Assembly: GCF_022832975.1 (NCBI RefSeq)
Contig: NZ_CP094846.1
Span: forward strand, 2,121,501 to 2,185,500
Direction: 5' to 3'
From: Ornithobacterium rhinotracheale
GTDB taxonomy: Bacteria > Bacteroidota > Bacteroidia > Flavobacteriales > Weeksellaceae
Length of the DNA: 64,000 nt
In this document: positions 311 through 61,707 of the stretch, in pieces
Layout: every line of letters starts with the position of its first letter
Numbering within the stretch: position 1 is the first letter of the stretch
The notes under the pieces: generated by a model
What the model was told of the DNA's origin: nothing
Database searches by the model: none
Seen by the model: only the letters and a program-made list of their open reading frames with translations
Program-made: the position numbers and the translations under genes

Positions 311-967
311 ATGAAACTACACACCGACTTATCTTTACCCTACTTAATTAGAAAATCCTCTAAGCCCAATGCCCCACTTTTACTTCTACTTCATGGCTAC
401 GGCAGCAACGAGGCCGATTTATTCTCCTTTGCGCCCGAATTGCCAGAAGATTTCTGCGTTGTGGCTTTTCGAGCACCTATTGATTTAGGTTTTGGTGGCT
501 ATGCATGGTATGACATCAATTTCACGGATTTAGAAAAATTCAACGATGTAGAACAAGCGAGACAAGCCATTGCATTGATCAAAAAATGTATTTCTGAGCT
601 AATTTCCACCTATGATTTAAATCCAGAAAATATTTGGCTTTGCGGATTTAGCCAAGGTGCAATTTTAAGCAATGCACTCTGTATTCAATCGCCAGAAAAC
701 ATCAAAAATGTAATTATGCTTAGTGGATACTGGGCAAGCGATATTATTGGAAATTTCAGACCAAAAGATTATTCAAAAATCAGATATTTTATCTCTCACG
801 GAACCGAAGATGCCGTAATCCCAATTGAATGGGCAAGAAAAACGCCTGAAAATCTGAATTTACTCGGAATCAAAAATATCTATCACGAATACTTGAGCGG
901 ACATGGAATTGTACCTCAAAATTTCCACGATTTTCTAACCTTTGTAAATACTAATCTTCATCGCTAA
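311..967 (+). CDS. Alpha/beta hydrolase, phospholipase/carboxylesterase family
   Basis: This 218-aa protein has the features of the small cytosolic phospholipase/carboxylesterase (acyl-protein thioesterase-like) family. An HGYG oxyanion-hole motif lies at residues 28-31. The nucleophile elbow GFSQG is at 112-116 (Ser114), the acid is Asp167 in HGTEDAVIP, and the His is His198 in SGHGI, so the triad is complete and in order. There is no signal peptide, so it is expected in the cytoplasm. The substrate cannot be read from sequence; such enzymes hydrolyse short acyl esters or lysophospholipids. It stands alone, 113 bp upstream of kbl on the same strand. Confidence 0.88.
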   Translation: MKLHTDLSLPYLIRKSSKPNAPLLLLLHGYGSNEADLFSFAPELPEDFCVVAFRAPIDLGFGGYAWYDINFTDLEKFNDVEQARQAIALIKKCISELISTYDLNPENIWLCGFSQGAILSNALCIQSPENIKNVIMLSGYWASDIIGNFRPKDYSKIRYFISHGTEDAVIPIEWARKTPENLNLLGIKNIYHEYLSGHGIVPQNFHDFLTFVNTNLHR

Positions 968-1079
968 ACAACTGCAAAATGTAGATTTTACACGGTTTAG
1001 CGTTAAAAATCCGTTCGAGAAAATTGCATTTAATTGTATTTAATTTTTTAACTTTAACACTCATTTCAAAGCTAAAAAA

Positions 1080-2276
1080 ATGTATAACGATCAATTTAAA
1101 AAACATTTGCAAAGTACCCTCAACCAAATCAAGGACGAGGGGTTGTACAAAAAAGAACGCATCATTGCCTCTCAACAAGCGGCAGAAATCACTTTAGAAA
1201 ACGGCTCTAAACTCTTGAATTTCTGTGCAAACAACTATTTGGGTTTATCCAACACCCCAAGAGTGATGAAAGCCTCTCAACAAGCAATAGACTCCCACGG
1301 ATACGGCATGTCTTCAGTAAGATTTATCTGCGGAACTCAAGATATACACAAGCAATTAGAAGATAAGATTTCTAAATTTTTAGGCACAGAAGATACAATT
1401 TTATATGCAGCCTGTTTTGACGCTAATGGTGGTGTTTTCGAACCACTTTTAACAGCTGAAGATGCCATTATTTCTGATGAATTAAACCATGCCTCTATTA
1501 TAGACGGGGTGCGCCTCTGCAAGGCGATGCGCTACCGCTATAAAAATAACAATATGGAGGATTTAGAAGCTCAATTAAAAGCCGCTGATGAGGCTGGTGC
1601 ACGCTTTAAGCTCATTGTAACAGATGGCGTTTTCTCAATGGACGGTATCGTGGCAAATCTGAAAGGGGTGTGCGATTTAGCCGAAAAATATAACGCCCTT
1701 GTAATGGTAGACGATTCTCACGCCACGGGATTCATCGGGAAAACTGGCCGCGGAACGCACGAAGCGAATGGTGTAATGGGGCGTGTAGACATCATCACCT
1801 CCACCCTAGGCAAAGCGCTGGGCGGTGCGCTGGGCGGTTTCACCTCTGGTAAAAAGGAAATCATTGATTTGCTAAGACAGCGCTCCCGACCTTATTTATT
1901 TTCAAACTCGCTAGCCCCTAGCATTGTGGGAGCTGCCATAGAGGTTTTAGATATGCTTACAGAAGACACCTCTCGCCGCGATAAAGTAATGGCTAATGCC
2001 GAATATTTCCGCAACGAAATGAAGGCTAAGGGCTTTGATATTCCTGATGGAGATGCTGCCATTGTGCCTGTGATGCTTTATGATGCTAAACTTTCGCAGG
2101 AAATGGCTGATAAACTTTTGGATGAGGGCATTTATGTCATCGGCTTCTTCTACCCTGTGGTGCCAAAAGGCAAAGCAAGAATCCGTGTTCAGCTCTCTGC
2201 GGGGCACACCAAGGAGCATTTGGACAAAGCCATTGCCGCATTTAAAAAAGTGGGAAAAGAATTAGGAGTAATTTAA
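1080..2276 (+). CDS. kbl: Glycine C-acetyltransferase (2-amino-3-ketobutyrate CoA ligase)
   Basis: The 398-aa length and sequence match the alpha-oxoamine synthase family of PLP enzymes. The internal aldimine lysine is Lys245 in [13 protein letters not shown], the PLP-stacking and phosphate motifs include DDSHATGF (211-218), and NNYLGL (51-56) is the family's N-terminal signature. Kbl condenses glycine and acetyl-CoA, or in the degradative direction cleaves 2-amino-3-ketobutyrate formed from threonine by threonine dehydrogenase. No tdh gene is adjacent. Serine palmitoyltransferase, used by many Bacteroidota for sphingolipids, is a related alternative, but the overall sequence looks like Kbl. 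It ends before a strong shared terminator. Confidence 0.85.
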
Positions 2277-2315
2277 TTTTTAAAGTTTTTTAGTCCTAAT
2301 TTCTTAAAAACAAAG

Positions 2316-2341
2316 ACGCCGTTTCAACATTGAAACGGCGT
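2316..2341. terminator. Bidirectional rho-independent terminator between kbl and clpP
   Basis: Two perfect 12-nt arms (2316-2327 and 2330-2341) form a GC-containing hairpin. A-tracts on the left and T-tracts on the right serve convergent transcripts on both strands. Confidence 0.85.
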
Positions 2342-2370
2342 TTTTTAATACATATGATAAAAATTTAAGT

Positions 2371-3036
2371 TTAAGCTCTTTTTCGCTCAAGCACTTCATC
2401 GATCATGCCTTTTTCTTTAGCTTCGTAAGAAGTCATCCAGTAATCTCTGTCTGATGCTTTTTCCACCCACTCAAAACTTTGCCCTGAATGGTTTGCGATG
2501 ATTTCGTACAATTCTTTTTTCAATTTAAGCATTTCTCTTAAATTAATCTCCATATCTGCTGCCACACCTTGTGCGCCACCGCTTGGCTGGTGAATCATCA
2601 CACGCGCATGTTTCAAAGCTGAACGCTTTCCTTTTTCGCCTGCGCACATCAACACCGCTCCCATCGAAGCTGCCATACCAGTACAGATTGTCGCTACATC
2701 GGGCTTAATGATTTGCATGGTGTCGTAAATTCCAAGTCCTGCATACACGCTACCCCCAGGAGAGTTGATGTACATTTGGATATCCTTGCTCGCATCTACC
2801 GACTCCAAGAACAATAGCTGCGCGGTGATGATGTTTGCCACTTGGTCATCGATTCCTGTTCCTAGGAACAAAATTCTATCCATCATCAAACGAGAGAAAA
2901 CATCCATTTGCGCTACATTCAATTTGCGCTCTTCTATAATGTATGGCGTAAGGCTGTTCTCGAAATCATGAAGTGTTTGGCTACTGATCCCTTGCCCTTT
3001 GACTGCGTATTTTTTAAATTCTTTTCCGAAATCCAT
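2371..3036 (-). CDS. clpP: ATP-dependent Clp protease proteolytic subunit
   Basis: At 221 aa this is a standard ClpP serine protease. The catalytic triad is visible: Ser124 in GMAASMGAVLM, His149 in MIHQPSGG and Asp198 in DRDYWM, with the same spacings as the E. coli enzyme (25 and 49 residues). ClpP forms a barrel of two heptamers in the cytoplasm and degrades proteins fed to it by ClpX or ClpA/C. No clpX or tig gene lies next to it here, so the chaperone partner must be elsewhere. A TAATTTTG -7 box on the minus strand at 3093-3100 gives a leader of about 50 nt. Confidence 0.96.
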   Translation of the reverse strand: MDFGKEFKKYAVKGQGISSQTLHDFENSLTPYIIEERKLNVAQMDVFSRLMMDRILFLGTGIDDQVANIITAQLLFLESVDASKDIQMYINSPGGSVYAGLGIYDTMQIIKPDVATICTGMAASMGAVLMCAGEKGKRSALKHARVMIHQPSGGAQGVAADMEINLREMLKLKKELYEIIANHSGQSFEWVEKASDRDYWMTSYEAKEKGMIDEVLERKRA

Positions 3037-3139
3037 TATTTCTTTAGTTTTTAATATTTATAAAATTGTAATTAGCATATTTAATACCAATACAAAATTA
3101 ATGTTATTTTGTCAGTTAAAAAAATAGGATTTTTTTGGA

Positions 3140-5608
3140 TTAAAATTTAAAAGTCAGTTTTGCGGCAAAGTTTCTCGGATCAATTCGATTGATATACACA
3201 TTTCGGTATGCGTTGTATCCAATTTCATCCAAAATATTATTGGCAAAAAACTGAATTCCAAATTTTGGCGTATTATACGCAATTTGTGCATTTATTGTAG
3301 TGTATGCTTTGTTATGCCAAGGTTTAGCTTTTACATCGATTCCATGAATTTGCATACCTTTTCGGGTATAATCGTTATATGGTCTATCGCCTAAATAGTA
3401 AACACCTGCCCCCACCGACAAACCATTGAGCACTCCTTGATTAAAGGTATAGTTTGTCCAGAAATTAGCCACATTGTGCGGCGTATTGTTTGGCGCACTT
3501 CCGTTCACAAATCGCGTACTGTTTTTATACTGTGCATCTAGATAAGAGTAGCCTCCCATGATTTCTAAATTCGGTAAAATACGACCAATTAACTCCAGCT
3601 CGATTCCTTGTCTTGTATCGTCGCCACCTTTAAAGTAATAGGGCTCAAATTGCCAAACTCCGTTAGAATCCATGGTCACCTCTTGCATAATCATATTTTT
3701 GTTCTGAACATTAAAATAGGTAGCATTAAATCTTAATCTTTTATTGAACCATTCGGTTTTCAATCCGGCTTCCCATTGGGTAGCTACGGAATTCCCTAGC
3801 TCTTTTCCATTTTTGTCTAAACGCGCTGAATTTCTTGGATCTGAAATATTTGTATACGAAGCAAAAACCCCTATGTTTTTAATCGGATTTGCCAAAATTC
3901 CAAAAATTGGATTGATGGTATTTCCTTCCACTAAATTACCCTTCACCTTATCATGCGAAGTATAGTGAGAGTAGCGAGAGCCCATAAACACACGCAGATA
4001 ATCTTCCACCTGCATTACATATTGTGCCATTCCGCCCAATTCTTTGGCATAAGTTTCGCCTTTTCCGCTTTCTGCAAAGGCAGGAATACCATTTGGCAAA
4101 CTATTAGAAATAACATTATCATTCACATTGATTTTATCGATCACCACACTATTGAACGCTGTAGTTTCCACTTGGCTTTCTTTAAAATCAAAGCCCACTT
4201 GGAACAAATGCTTCACAATTCCAGTTTGGAAATTTTGCCCCACCAAATCCAATTGAAATACTTTATTATCGTCAATTCTTGGCGATTTGGTCAAAGCTCT
4301 CGTTACTTCGTAAGGGCTACCTTTAATTTCCTTGGTTTTCTTGTCCAAATTTTGTTTCAAGCTGATTCCCACACCATTTAAATCTAAATGCGATGCAAAA
4401 TATCCCGCGCGCAAGTACAAGTGCTTGTTTAAATCATATTTTGCTCTAGCACTATAAGTCAAGTTTTTGGTTAAAGATTCGTTGTCTTTAAATCCTAAGA
4501 ATTTGCTTTTTGGCAAGTCTAAAATTTCGTTTTTGGTATTATCTTTTGATAAATTGATGGTTCCAGGATCTGGTGTTCTTTTATCGTCGAGATAATCCAT
4601 TTCCAGCGTTACTTCTAATGATTTTGTAGGTTTCCATTTCAATGATGGATTAAAATAATATTTATTAAAAGTGTTTTCATCTCGGTACCCATCGCTATGT
4701 TCATACGCACCATTTAGCCTAAATGCCAAAGTATTATTTTTATCTAAAACACGGTTTATGTCCAGCGTTGGGCGAATCGTATTGAAACTTCCATAACGCA
4801 AAGATACTTCGCCAAAATTCTTAAATTTCGGTGTTTTTGTTACTAAATTCACTACACCACCGGCAGAGCCTAAATCTAGCCCAAACCCTTGTGTTACAGC
4901 AGTAGCTCCTTTCAAAACTTGCACACTTTCCACACCTTCCATATCGGTTATAATTCCTTGCCCTCTAAAATCTGAATGTACGCGTACGCCATTTTTCAAA
5001 ACAGGAATTCCGCGGAATCCACGCGAACCTAAACTTTCTCTTTGGTTTCCAAAAGTAGCATATGTATATACACCAGGGGCATTTCGTGTAGCATCGGCTA
5101 TATTCAGAATCCCTTGCCTATCAATTACTTGTTCTGAAATAGTGGTAATTGTCTGAATATTCTCTTGCGGACTAAGCGGTAATCTAGTAATTTCGTCTAA
5201 CTTCTCTGGTTGCTTGTGCCTATCGCCAAAAAGTTCCACGCCTTGCAAGGCAATAGTTTTATCTACCAACAAATCAAGCTGTTTCACTTCATTTGGACGA
5301 AGATTTATTTCATATTTTTCACTTTTTTGATTGTAGAGAAAAATCACCCACTGCCCCGCTGAAAGTCGCAATTTATAATTTCCTTTGTCATTGGTTTTAA
5401 CTAATATTTCTTCTCTACCAAAATCACTTTTAGCACGGACAACGGCTCCCCCTACATGCTCCCCTTGCGCATTACGCACAGTACCTGTAACGATGCATTC
5501 GCCCTCTACTTGCCTGTGATGTTGTATCTTTCCTTTGTGATGCTGTGCCTGCATTGCGCTCATCCCCATAAGCGCAAAAAATAGGCATGTAATCTTCATG
5601 TGTTTCAT
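3140..5608 (-). CDS. TonB-dependent siderophore-type receptor
   Basis: This 822-aa outer-membrane receptor has a signal peptide (LFFALMGMSAMQAQ) and a carboxypeptidase-regulatory-like beta-sandwich (about residues 38-115). A plug domain carries the typical GFRGIPVLKNGVR and VQVLKGATAVTQGFG motifs, and a 22-strand-type barrel ends in an aromatic C-terminal strand (LTFKF). The sequence resembles ferric-siderophore receptors. It is the second gene of a two-gene operon behind the PepSY protein, with a 28-bp gap. That pairing (receptor plus PepSY membrane protein) is typical of ferric-siderophore uptake and intracellular release. The exact siderophore cannot be told. Confidence 0.9.
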   Translation of the reverse strand: MKHMKITCLFFALMGMSAMQAQHHKGKIQHHRQVEGECIVTGTVRNAQGEHVGGAVVRAKSDFGREEILVKTNDKGNYKLRLSAGQWVIFLYNQKSEKYEINLRPNEVKQLDLLVDKTIALQGVELFGDRHKQPEKLDEITRLPLSPQENIQTITTISEQVIDRQGILNIADATRNAPGVYTYATFGNQRESLGSRGFRGIPVLKNGVRVHSDFRGQGIITDMEGVESVQVLKGATAVTQGFGLDLGSAGGVVNLVTKTPKFKNFGEVSLRYGSFNTIRPTLDINRVLDKNNTLAFRLNGAYEHSDGYRDENTFNKYYFNPSLKWKPTKSLEVTLEMDYLDDKRTPDPGTINLSKDNTKNEILDLPKSKFLGFKDNESLTKNLTYSARAKYDLNKHLYLRAGYFASHLDLNGVGISLKQNLDKKTKEIKGSPYEVTRALTKSPRIDDNKVFQLDLVGQNFQTGIVKHLFQVGFDFKESQVETTAFNSVVIDKINVNDNVISNSLPNGIPAFAESGKGETYAKELGGMAQYVMQVEDYLRVFMGSRYSHYTSHDKVKGNLVEGNTINPIFGILANPIKNIGVFASYTNISDPRNSARLDKNGKELGNSVATQWEAGLKTEWFNKRLRFNATYFNVQNKNMIMQEVTMDSNGVWQFEPYYFKGGDDTRQGIELELIGRILPNLEIMGGYSYLDAQYKNSTRFVNGSAPNNTPHNVANFWTNYTFNQGVLNGLSVGAGVYYLGDRPYNDYTRKGMQIHGIDVKAKPWHNKAYTTINAQIAYNTPKFGIQFFANNILDEIGYNAYRNVYINRIDPRNFAAKLTFKF

Positions 5609-58395: not shown

Positions 58396-61239
58396 TTACA
58401 ATTGTAGTTTTCGTTCCCGCCAATAACCTCGTATTCGGCTCAGATTTATATTTAACAAAAATCTGATTCTCTGAAAATATTGAGGCATAGCTGGCTCAAA
58501 ACCTAAAGTAGACTGCATAGGGAAGTACAATTCTACAAAATCTGGCACCAAGCTTAGCCTTATACCTGTATCGTAAACAAAGTGTGCTTTATCATCCTTA
58601 TTTTGATACATACCAGCATCCGCATAAACATCCAGCATTTTGATGATGGGATACTCCAAATTCAGTGTGAACATTAATTTATTGGCTTTGGCTCCCAATA
58701 ATGACTTAAAACCTCCTTCTGCCATAACGAATTGCTGACTTAAAATTCCCTTTTCTTCCGAACGACCGAGCAAGTTATAAGAATATGTATAATCTGTAAT
58801 TCGATCCAAGCCATAATCATAAAACTTTGTTGCTTTAAATTTATGATTAAAGAATATTCCAGCAAATGCACGAACGCCCATTCTACGATTTTTGCTTAAT
58901 TTCCAACGATGATAAAACTCTGTAGATAATTTTGCAAATTTATTGGAATATTGTACATTCATTCGGCCTGTAGACTCACTGATTGTTTGGTAATTCCTAT
59001 ACACTAGCTGGGTATTAAGCAATTGATATCTTTTCAAATCTATCTCTATAAGGCTGGGCTCTTGAGGCAATTGACGCTGAATATCCTCAAAACCAATTTG
59101 CACATAATAATCCTTTGTGCTTAAAACATCTTTTTTGAATTTAAAATTAACGCCCCCACTGTATTTATAATATTCCAGACCTTGCTGAAAGTGCCCTAGC
59201 CCTGTACCTGCGTAAAAATCTATCTCACGAAAAACATTGCTCTTGTATAACAAATACTTGTATAGGAAACTGGCGCCACCAACAATTTTACCAGAGCCAA
59301 AACTATACATAGGGGTAGCTTTGAAAACAAAATCTTGCGGAAAAACGGTTTCATTTGTAAGCCTCACTCCTAATTGTAATTTATCATAATTATTCCAATT
59401 TGCATTTGGCCAAACAAATAATTGTTGAAATTCTGGCACTTGAATATCCCCCACAGGACTTAATTTTATCTTCGTTTTTCTCCACTTATCTTTTCTAAAA
59501 ACATTATTTGACAATTCTGTTTCAGGGAAGTAATCCCCATGTTTTAGCGTAATGGTATTGTAATCTAATTTGGGTATATTCACCGCAAACTTCTTTTTAT
59601 TAGATTGCACCCATGTTTTGTATAAATCAATGCTATCACGCGAAACTACAATTTGTGTAGGCCCTCCGAATTCATTCTTATTTTTAATTTTGATTTGTGT
59701 ACTATCTGGCAAATCTTTGACTCGTACTATTGCCATATCAAACCCACCTGATTCTTTAATCATTTCATCAAAAAACCAATTTAAATCTTTGCTAGAATGC
59801 TTCATTAAATAATCTTTGAAATACTCTTTGGTCAAAACATCACCTTTCTTTGTTTCAATCATTTCCTTGAAAATCCTATCAAATTCATTTTTAGGCAAAT
59901 ATTCCGCTAGATAATCAAATGCCAATCCCGTTTTTATGGAACTTACTTGTTTTTGATTCACAGAGCGCAATTGATCATATGGCGTATCAATAGGTTGATC
60001 TATATTCTGCTTCATAAAGTATCTGTGGTAAAGCGGGTAACGATCTATATACCCAAACTTGGACGACTCATACCAATGCAGTGGATGTATCTTCCAAATA
60101 CCTAAATCTTCTGGCACTTTTCCAGCAATAGGAGTATTCAGATGAAACCTCTTTAGATACTGAAGAGCCAAATAGCTTTTAAAACCATTGAGCAACCAGT
60201 GATCTCCCCGCTTGTCCACAGAAATGCTTCTGTCGCAATATGCAGAGATTATAGATGGCAAATATTTTAAATCTAAACGGGTACTATCTTGATATATTTT
60301 ATATTTCCCAAAAAGAGGAATTTTCACATCATCGATAAAGTTTTGCTTCTCTTTGCCCAATAATTTACTAGAAACAAATAGAGGCTCGCTAAGGGGAGGG
60401 AGATATTCTTGAAGATAATTCAGCTGCTTGCTCAATACTTTTTTCAATATCAAAGAATCTTTAGAAGGAATTTTTTCTTGAAAAATGATTTTCTGATTTC
60501 CTACATTAATTTCTGTAATTTGATTAGGGTTCAGCAAAGCTAATTCAAAAAAGGATCGATTATCACCCTCGTACACCCCTCCGCCAATCGACTGCAAATC
60601 AGTAAAAATAGTAGAATTAGTATTATTTACAACCTTTATTCTATAATAAGTATTCTCTGAGCTTAGAGATTCTAAATCTTTAAAACTCTGCCACCTGAAT
60701 TTTCCATCTTCGTAGAACCCTGGATGCAAAAGAAAATATTTAAAGAAATAACTTTCTTTCTTCTCATTATACCCATAGCCCGTAAAACCATCCGCGGGTA
60801 GTTTTATTTTATATTTGGCAAAAAAACGAAAACGCTTTCTTTGAGGTTTTAATTTGAGCTTAAAAACTTCGGCATTTAATCTAGCATCATCTTCAATGAT
60901 TTTCCCATTGCTATCATATATTTTCAAATCATAAATCCCACCTAAATTTTTATTTTTAGCAAAATACAATTTCTCGTTTCCGCCTCTTAATTTGACACGA
61001 CTCATCACCGATTTTCTTCTATAAGCATTCACCCAAGCATATATAAAAACCTGATTCTCATCAATTCTTAAAGGCAAATCAAAATGCTGTTCTACCTGCA
61101 CTAAATCCGAATTAGGCTCAAAGATTAACTTGGCTGAAATACTATCGGTTTGCGCATGTAAGGCTCCGACACTCATCAAGCATAAAATAAAAAATAGTGT
61201 ATAATTGTTAATTCCAAATCTATATTTATGAGTTGGCAT
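58396..61239 (-). CDS. Inactive M1-peptidase-like domain fused to an outer-membrane barrel
   Basis: The 947-aa exported protein has a signal peptide (YTLFFILCLMSVGALHAQ), an N-terminal beta region and a helical middle resembling the M1 aminopeptidase core. A C-terminal half of about 350 residues of barrel strands follows (FVFKATPMYSFGSGKIVGGASFLYKYLLY...). The M1 zinc motif HExxH is missing and the following WLNEGFA motif reads WLLNGFKSYL (348-357), with the ligand Glu replaced. The peptidase domain should therefore be inactive. It may act as a binding or assembly domain carried on the barrel. The gene is monocistronic, with TACTTTTG on the minus strand at 61267-61274. Confidence 0.8.
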   Translation of the reverse strand: MPTHKYRFGINNYTLFFILCLMSVGALHAQTDSISAKLIFEPNSDLVQVEQHFDLPLRIDENQVFIYAWVNAYRRKSVMSRVKLRGGNEKLYFAKNKNLGGIYDLKIYDSNGKIIEDDARLNAEVFKLKLKPQRKRFRFFAKYKIKLPADGFTGYGYNEKKESYFFKYFLLHPGFYEDGKFRWQSFKDLESLSSENTYYRIKVVNNTNSTIFTDLQSIGGGVYEGDNRSFFELALLNPNQITEINVGNQKIIFQEKIPSKDSLILKKVLSKQLNYLQEYLPPLSEPLFVSSKLLGKEKQNFIDDVKIPLFGKYKIYQDSTRLDLKYLPSIISAYCDRSISVDKRGDHWLLNGFKSYLALQYLKRFHLNTPIAGKVPEDLGIWKIHPLHWYESSKFGYIDRYPLYHRYFMKQNIDQPIDTPYDQLRSVNQKQVSSIKTGLAFDYLAEYLPKNEFDRIFKEMIETKKGDVLTKEYFKDYLMKHSSKDLNWFFDEMIKESGGFDMAIVRVKDLPDSTQIKIKNKNEFGGPTQIVVSRDSIDLYKTWVQSNKKKFAVNIPKLDYNTITLKHGDYFPETELSNNVFRKDKWRKTKIKLSPVGDIQVPEFQQLFVWPNANWNNYDKLQLGVRLTNETVFPQDFVFKATPMYSFGSGKIVGGASFLYKYLLYKSNVFREIDFYAGTGLGHFQQGLEYYKYSGGVNFKFKKDVLSTKDYYVQIGFEDIQRQLPQEPSLIEIDLKRYQLLNTQLVYRNYQTISESTGRMNVQYSNKFAKLSTEFYHRWKLSKNRRMGVRAFAGIFFNHKFKATKFYDYGLDRITDYTYSYNLLGRSEEKGILSQQFVMAEGGFKSLLGAKANKLMFTLNLEYPIIKMLDVYADAGMYQNKDDKAHFVYDTGIRLSLVPDFVELYFPMQSTLGFEPAMPQYFQRIRFLLNINLSRIRGYWRERKLQL

Positions 61240-61256
61240 ATAGTTTGCTTATTTAG

Positions 61257-61275
61257 GTACTTGTTACAAAAGTAC
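61257..61275. promoter_or_regulatory. Inverted repeat in a divergent promoter region
   Basis: GTACTT (61257-61262) and AAGTAC (61270-61275) form a 6-bp inverted repeat with a 7-nt spacer. They overlap the -7 box of the minus-strand gene and lie 10 bp before the NlpE-like start. A shared operator is possible. Confidence 0.35.
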
Positions 61276-61284
61276 AAATCTGGA

Positions 61285-61707
61285 ATGAAAAAAAATATGA
61301 TAATTTGCTTAATGAGTACTTTTTTAGTAGCGTTCTCATGCAAAACATCTCATAAAGAAGTGATTGTAACCAAATCAGGCGAAATCGTATTAAGCCCTAA
61401 AAGTGACGTTTTTGAACTCGGTTCCAATAATTTTTTTGGCACATACATTGGCAAAATTCCTTGCTCATGTTGTAAAAACGGGGTAAAAACTGTTTTGACA
61501 CTAAAAGAAGATAGTTCTTATCGCTTAAAAGAGGACAGAAACCACCACTCTAAGGTGATAAATGGTTTCTACTCTGTTGAAAATAATATCATCACATTAG
61601 ACGACAAAGATATTTTCCGATTAAATAAAAATCAACTTTACTTCCTACAAAGCAAAGCGCATAATCAAGACAATTCTACTACTTACATACTCAATAAAGT
61701 CAAATAA
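61285..61707 (+). CDS. NlpE-like lipoprotein
   Basis: This protein of about 140 aa has a lipoprotein signal (IICLMSTFLVAFSC) and the N-terminal domain of NlpE, the copper-homeostasis and envelope-stress lipoprotein. GTYIGKIPCSCCKNGVKTVLTLKEDSSYRLKE matches the family pattern of a strand, a CxxC-type turn and a tandem TLTLxxDxxY strand. Here the cysteines read PCSCC. The frame is open upstream to 61228, but MKKNMIICLM starts the signal peptide. It is alone, divergent from the M1-like gene. Confidence 0.85.
   Translation: MKKNMIICLMSTFLVAFSCKTSHKEVIVTKSGEIVLSPKSDVFELGSNNFFGTYIGKIPCSCCKNGVKTVLTLKEDSSYRLKEDRNHHSKVINGFYSVENNIITLDDKDIFRLNKNQLYFLQSKAHNQDNSTTYILNKVK

Follow-up and report, generated by a model that had tools for sequence, protein, structure and literature searches.

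The window analysed here comprises 64,000 nucleotides of Ornithobacterium rhinotracheale DNA (contig NZ_CP094846.1, positions 2,121,501 to 2,185,500). On its reverse strand, at 58396–61239, the list of open reading frames (ORFs) contains an intact frame of 947 amino acids, running from ATG to stop without an internal stop codon. An earlier note, made from the sequence letters, had taken this gene to encode a long, intact protein in which a peptidase-dead M1 domain is fused to an outer-membrane barrel; the ORF confirms the former, and predicted models support the latter. Where the mature N-terminus would begin, the family consensus reads QxDSI. The genome itself gives one match to this protein and encodes two further M1 proteins, which lack a barrel and have intact-looking zinc motifs. 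The parts of the gene are collected in Table 1.

The full-length AlphaFold2 model, computed with 31 family members, reached a mean predicted local distance difference test (pLDDT) score of 84.7. In this predicted model, residues from about 29 to 604 match M1 peptidases structurally with Z scores of about 18–21. The best VIA-align match is the tricorn interacting factor F3 (1z1w; Z 20.7, 3.3 Å, 441 residues), all 50 matches listed by this program are M1-type proteins, and the best Foldseek match of the full-length model is ERAP1 (E 1.3e-13). The M1 fold of the window protein is supported by the model, and the absence of such a fold, which the earlier note had named as an outcome against its reading, did not arise. 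Pfam and NCBIfam scans of the protein returned no M1 match, PF01433 included; at E values up to 1, Peptidase_M1 matches were obtained for 15 of the 31 aligned family members (best 2e-6), a set that includes the window protein, itself unmatched. When aligned with relatives whose site is intact, the protein lacks all five catalytic residues checked. PSIIS stands in place of HExxH, a motif found nowhere in the 947 residues, Asn351 occupies the position of the Glu ligand and Ser434 that of the catalytic Tyr. The missing HExxH and the WLLNGF at the Glu-ligand motif had both been pointed out before, and both observations stand. TAF2 and other M1 pseudo-peptidases likewise keep the M1 fold as a scaffold without catalysis, but these are eukaryotic, soluble proteins without a barrel.

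Table 1. Features of the M1-barrel gene in the window; residue numbers refer to the 947-residue protein.
Feature	Position	Strand	Basis
Whole gene: signal peptide, non-catalytic M1-fold domain, beta-domain and 16-strand outer-membrane barrel (predicted), 947 aa	58396..61239	-	ORF list, full-length AlphaFold2 model
Signal peptide, residues 1–29; Gln30 presumed mature N-terminus; no lipobox Cys	61153..61239	-	Read by eye
M1 N-terminal beta domain, about residues 30–250 (approximate boundary)	60490..61152	-	Secondary structure of the model; structural matches to M1 proteins starting at residue 29
M1 catalytic-fold domain, inactive, about residues 251–500 (approximate boundary)	59740..60489	-	Model and M1 structural matches
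PSIIS, residues 328–332, at the place of zinc-binding HExxH	60244..60258	-	Alignment to 34 intact relatives
WLLNGF, residues 348–353; Asn351 at the place of the third zinc ligand Glu	60181..60198	-	Sequence and alignment
NIDQ, residues 412–415	59995..60006	-	D414/Q415 conservation counts
Ser434 at the place of the catalytic Tyr	59938..59940	-	Alignment
Beta-domain linking M1 domain and barrel, about residues 501–590	59470..59739	-	Model strands 502–565
16-strand Omp85-like outer-membrane barrel (predicted), about residues 591–947	58399..59469	-	Barrel-only model, Foldseek and VIA-align matches
Residues 800–854, a long stretch joining barrel strands 11 and 12, at the Omp85 L6 loop position	58678..58842	-	Model; strand count and loop name by reading
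YADAG, residues 872–876, strand 13, at the Omp85 FxDxG position	58612..58626	-	Barrel model; aligned with TamL FTDAG in profile alignment

Relatives were collected with a single-protein query of 59 genomes, which found a match in 40 of them (the own genome included), and with profile searches of 149 genomes of the class and 196 of the order; below, L-numbers denote loci, G-numbers genomes and f-numbers families. The class-search loci are the best 30 matches plus picked ones, a choice that favours close relatives. From the 147 loci proteins (L001–L147), hand removal of 13 duplicates or fragments left 134, a length filter removed no more, and removal of near-copies by shared 4-mers yielded 114 non-redundant relatives of 891–1104 residues. 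L025 was kept despite one TAA in the matched stretch, and L124 and L127 are gapped at the first His. All five catalytic residues (H, E, H, E, Y) are intact in 34 of the 114 proteins, with HEVGH in 30, HEIGH in two and HEAGH and HELGH in one each; the motif is typically followed by NWFYG and WMDEG, and the four intact proteins scanned (L040, L064, L067 and L073) match Peptidase_M1 (PF01433) above the cut-off. The remaining 80, referred to here as dead, keep none (66), one (12) or two (2) of the five residues, and never both histidines. They come mostly from f1 (36), f3 (20, plus two named Flavobacteriaceae) and f7 (17), and these counts do not represent independent events.

An exact-motif count with a degenerate DNA pattern, which misses variants, located the intact motif in 86 of the 149 class genomes; it was preferred to the profile matches, obtained in 140 of 149 genomes, because these include ordinary M1 peptidases. 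The M1-barrel architecture with an intact site is thus widespread in the class Bacteroidia, and the architecture as such is not unusual, contrary to the earlier suggestion. In the order sample, the same pattern occurs in 13 of the 196 genomes, of families f7, f11 and f14, and in none of the 78 f1 and f3 genomes. The gene itself is present in 38 of 39 f1 and 39 of 39 f3 genomes of that sample, in one genome per family only as contig-end pieces, and in 26 of 36 f1 genomes of a sample drawn mostly at one genome per genus. One f77 relative (L074, in G197 C45) is interrupted by two TAG codons, which could be due to a broken gene or to another genetic code.

To place the loss, trees were computed from 77 and 32 of the 114 rows with the catalytic columns left out. 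In the quick 77-row LG+G4 tree (804 columns), all 46 dead proteins are separated from the rest by a branch whose Shimodaira–Hasegawa-like approximate likelihood ratio test (SH-aLRT) value is 100. This tree carried warnings for a long branch (L071), odd composition in 17 rows and four outgroup rows not on one side of any branch. The 32-row mixture-model tree (786 columns) recovers the dead clade with bootstrap/SH-aLRT support of 100/100 and in 100% of 200 bootstrap trees. With the root placed on distant members of the class, both trees show, with starred support, the intact f14 and then f5 proteins branching off before the dead clade; f6/f11 branch before f14/f5 in the 77-row tree, while the order of the f6/f11 pair and L039 is not resolved in the 32-row tree. 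Because intact Flavobacteriales proteins branch before the dead clade, the change is a loss rather than a gain, and because the dead proteins form one clade inside Flavobacteriales, catalysis was lost once. A dead M1-barrel protein that arose by a single loss is almost certain. The comparison with flavobacterial proteins that the earlier note had proposed accordingly shows the loss to be clade-wide, single and deep in Flavobacteriales; with a clade-wide pattern, chance does not account for it.

Gene order agrees with the placement of dead and intact forms in the trees. PadR and PspC genes lie directly upstream in dead f7 loci (L162, L163) as well as in intact f5 (L165) and f14 (L166) loci, the assignment resting on Pfam for the L165 pair only, and the next gene, by reading a large dehydrogenase E1, is common to dead f3 (L159–L161) and intact f5 (L165) loci. 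A recent duplication that left a dead spare copy was rejected as a general explanation: the dead and the intact f5/f14 proteins form one lineage, and the f1 and f3 genomes carry no intact motif. A dead and an intact copy do coexist in four f7 genomes (G253, G313, G320 and G369). Of the extra intact M1-barrels in these genomes (L109, L111, L113 and L115), the three included in the tree cluster with f68 proteins and lie far away from the dead clade, suggesting transfer between lineages.

Selection on the two parts of the protein was compared by the ratio of nonsynonymous to synonymous substitution rates (dN/dS, omega) in 19 disjoint pairs, picked greedily from 54 close pairs, with the M1 part defined as residues 30–590 and hence including the beta-domain. 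In the 11 dead pairs in which both ratios are finite, omega is 0.033–0.083 for the M1 part and 0.011–0.050 for the barrel, several dS values exceeding 1. In all 15 dead pairs, many of them from a few f1 genera, the dN of the M1 part is higher than that of the barrel, and it is lower in all of the only four active pairs (Fisher p 2.6e-4, a nominal value that assumes independence of pairs). Mean pairwise identity turns over in the same way: in the dead proteins it is 0.26–0.27 for the M1 part, 0.39 for the barrel and 0.51 for the loop that resembles L6 of Omp85 proteins, against 0.50–0.58, 0.30 and 0.38, respectively, in the active ones. This L6-like stretch (SQQFVxAEGGFKS) is the most conserved region compared in the dead clade. 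The dead M1 domain is under purifying selection and is not decaying; the reversal in dN and identity suggests that selection on the peptidase was relaxed but not abandoned, leaving the barrel as the tighter part.

In a search of positions 25 to 599 across the 80 dead proteins taken together, no M1-domain His, Cys or Glu is conserved at 85%. Among His, Cys, Asp and Glu, only two residues reach at least 85%: D414, within the M1 domain, and E573 (72 of 80), within the beta-domain. D414 is kept in 75 of 80 dead and 33 of 34 active proteins, and the adjacent Q415 in 78 of 80 and 33 of 34. Besides D414 and Q415, the M1-part residues still at 85% are Gly, Trp, Pro, Leu and Asn; the residues so conserved are also common in the active relatives, G373 excepted, and position 166 differs. 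Judged from the alignment, they look structural. An alternative zinc site, the other outcome that the earlier note had named against its reading, did not appear in this search of all 80 proteins together and was rejected, as D414 is kept equally in active relatives and E573 lies outside the M1 domain.

Characteristic motifs of Omp85 barrels are [V/I/L]RG[F/Y] in the L6 loop and FxDxG in strand 13. The last 359 residues of the window protein were modelled alone together with 56 barrels of the family, giving a pLDDT of 91.0 and 16 strands as counted by eye; in the predicted model, strands 11 and 12 are separated by 55 residues. The best structural matches of this barrel in the PDB are BamA, Sam50, TamA and FhaC; the best VIA-align match is 8xnb_A (Z 18.4, 4.2 Å, 285 residues), and the best Foldseek match has an E value of 6e-6 and a TM score of about 0.5. 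D874 of YADAG is invariant in 31 aligned rows. In profile–profile comparison with TamL, P was 5e-4 versus 0.09–0.11 for the reversed profile, at a probability of 13–31% (10% and P 0.003 in another run), and this alignment, weak but better than its decoy, lines up the DxG motif. In place of a POTRA domain, of which the window protein has none, the predicted model shows the M1 fold and the beta-domain. Taken together, the models suggest that the barrel is probably of the Omp85 type.

Several results weigh against this assignment. The barrel also matches, with a Z of 14.5, one chain (presumably the porin LamB) from the lambda gpJ-LamB complex, and PelBC (rank 41) and LptD (rank 49) are among the 50 Foldseek barrel matches listed; general barrel likeness therefore explains part of the Omp85 resemblance. 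PF01103 was not listed for any of the 56 barrels, the window protein having no Pfam Omp85 match, and its L6-like loop reads AEGGFKS and lacks VRGF/Y. The TamL profile match is weak (HHalign probability 10–31%), and that to BamA is not significant (P 0.12; with a larger set P 0.012 versus 0.087 reversed, probability 3.5%).

Two further loci carry related combinations. At L208 (586–3780, minus strand; family f8), an intact-looking M1 domain (HEIGHQWFY) is fused to a barrel bearing LRGY and FADAG, which are canonical Omp85 signs. PF01103 scored 34 bits, over the cut-off, in the genome profile search and was not listed by hmmscan of the L208 protein. Its sequence suggests that M1-Omp85 fusions exist; the M1 part resembles a soluble M1 protein of the O. 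rhinotracheale genome, and the fusion may be independent. The L210 protein (789–4040, plus strand; 1083 aa) combines PD40 propeller repeats with an Omp85-like end (PF01103 34.5 bits), and its N-terminal stretch WFTDGLTAYY resembles a degenerate peptidase.

In comparison with family M1 (F3, aminopeptidase N, LTA4H; PF01433), the window protein shares the predicted fold but lacks the zinc ligands, the general-base Glu and the catalytic Tyr, and its C-terminal part is an outer-membrane barrel. With Omp85 proteins (BamA, TamA/TamL, Sam50, FhaC) it shares the 16 strands, the long strand 11–12 stretch and the DxG of strand 13, but differs from them in lacking POTRA, VRGF/Y and a Pfam Omp85 match and in carrying the M1 fold in the POTRA place. 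Omp85 members without POTRA have been described, and the section of the 2014 survey by Heinz and Lithgow that describes the ten Omp85 subfamilies includes no M1 one (PMC4104836). The 'Metallo' Omp85 of that section likewise bears a so-called metalloprotease domain on an Omp85 barrel, but this domain is PF00149, which is Metallophos in Pfam and not M1; the Pfam scan of the window protein gave no PF00149 match. In the parts of the report on PlpD drawn on here (PMC11116518), an enzyme-type domain likewise precedes an Omp85-type barrel, and this patatin domain is located in the periplasm. PlpD has a patatin lipase and POTRA, while the window protein has an inactive M1 fold and neither patatin nor POTRA. 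None of the titles and abstracts listed in searches of the open-licence PMC literature concerns an M1-Omp85 protein, and the best 15 of 246 matches listed for transposon sequencing (Tn-seq) include no flavobacterial dataset.

An envelope-related gene with an NlpE domain (61228–61707, plus strand; Pfam NlpE 34 bits) is divergent from the pseudo-peptidase gene. Its listed start overlaps the latter, and a start at 61285, with a lipoprotein-like signal, looks likelier. The PadR and PspC genes upstream of dead and intact forms, in four loci and three families, hint at a link to envelope stress. A conserved operon partner was rejected, none being shared clade-wide in the neighbourhoods compared.

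Our preferred, still tentative reading is that the window protein is a non-catalytic factor of outer-membrane assembly or quality control, in which an M1-fold periplasmic binding module sits on an Omp85-like barrel. The ancestor would have carried an M1 zinc peptidase where other Omp85 proteins have POTRA domains. The catalytic residues were lost once, in an ancestor of Flavobacteriaceae, Weeksellaceae and relatives, while the protein was retained. The old peptidase cleft, or the surface around it, may hold an extended client segment or a partner protein beneath the barrel. The membrane work, be it releasing or inserting clients or docking a partner, may fall to the barrel, which is now under the tightest constraint. 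A periplasmic position of the M1 part is most likely, because an N-terminal domain precedes an even-stranded barrel and PlpD offers a precedent. Intact relatives would be periplasmic peptidases tethered to an Omp85-like barrel, a role modelled on the part that zinc peptidases such as BepA play in quality control (PMC13067283); in Flavobacteriales only the holding function would be left. Client binding and a role in envelope assembly are what we infer from these data, and the earlier proposal of peptide binding or help in surface assembly fits them.

Other observations count against this reading. No neighbour gene is common to the whole clade in the 21 neighbourhoods compared, and the M1-barrel protein has no known partner or client. 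The gene is not indispensable, as ten of the 36 f1 genomes in the mostly one-per-genus sample lack a clear copy, three of these ten genomes being less than 85% complete. Six subunits of the F. johnsoniae BAM complex are named in the consulted part of PMC12611786, no M1-barrel protein among them; BamG, BamH, BamM and BamP are likewise parts of Bacteroidota outer-membrane assembly, and that text presents none of the four as an M1-barrel protein.

The protein might alternatively be an uptake or efflux channel, with the barrel as the pore and the M1 fold serving as its plug or gate, or as a domain that binds peptides or other solutes in the periplasm. With 16 strands and a long conserved loop, the barrel could form a channel; clefts of M1 proteins bind peptides, and genes that by reading look like ExbB, ExbD and TonB adjoin the gene in its genus and at L151. 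However, this neighbourhood is confined to near relatives and the nearest barrels are protein-assembly Omp85s, not porins, which makes a channel unlikely. It is improbable that the M1-like domain reaches the cell surface by way of the barrel, a route once proposed for type Vd secretion: the nearest barrels include the translocator FhaC, but the domain of PlpD, itself an enzyme-headed Omp85, lies in the periplasm (the cited parts of PMC11116518), and no lipobox was seen by eye.

Continued catalysis, through an alternative metal site or some other chemistry in the same cleft, could explain why the M1 part is still under purifying selection and why D414 and Q415 are kept. The 85% search across all 80 dead proteins, however, gave no M1-domain His, Cys or Glu as a candidate; the one charged residue of that domain at this level, D414, is no better kept than in active relatives, and E573 lies in the beta-domain. 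We consider an enzyme very improbable. The lost catalytic residues might also be taken as a sign of a decaying pseudogene, but this was rejected by dN/dS, and given the intact frame, an omega of 0.03–0.08 and retention over many genera its probability is negligible.

Beyond the non-catalytic assembly or quality-control factor proposed for the window protein, M1-Omp85 proteins would form an undescribed Omp85 subfamily with M1 replacing POTRA, whose intact forms, in many Bacteroidia, couple the handling of clients at the barrel to proteolysis (fold or degrade) and whose Flavobacteriales form became a pure client-holding arm after one ancient event; in this full extent the proposal is speculative and rather unlikely. 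The inference of pseudoenzymes usually proceeds protein by protein, whereas here intact and dead forms of one full-length architecture stand on one tree with a single, well-supported loss, so that the former peptidase role can be compared directly with what remains. If the barrel is an Omp85 barrel, the Omp85 family, in which the members studied are mostly engaged in assembling or moving outer-membrane proteins (OMPs), gains an M1-headed kind that lacks POTRA. The phylum in question is one for which recent work has shown that outer-membrane assembly differs from that in E. coli. If the fold-or-degrade reading is true, the two forms would be a natural before-and-after pair bearing on the need of an OMP-assembly machine for proteolysis.

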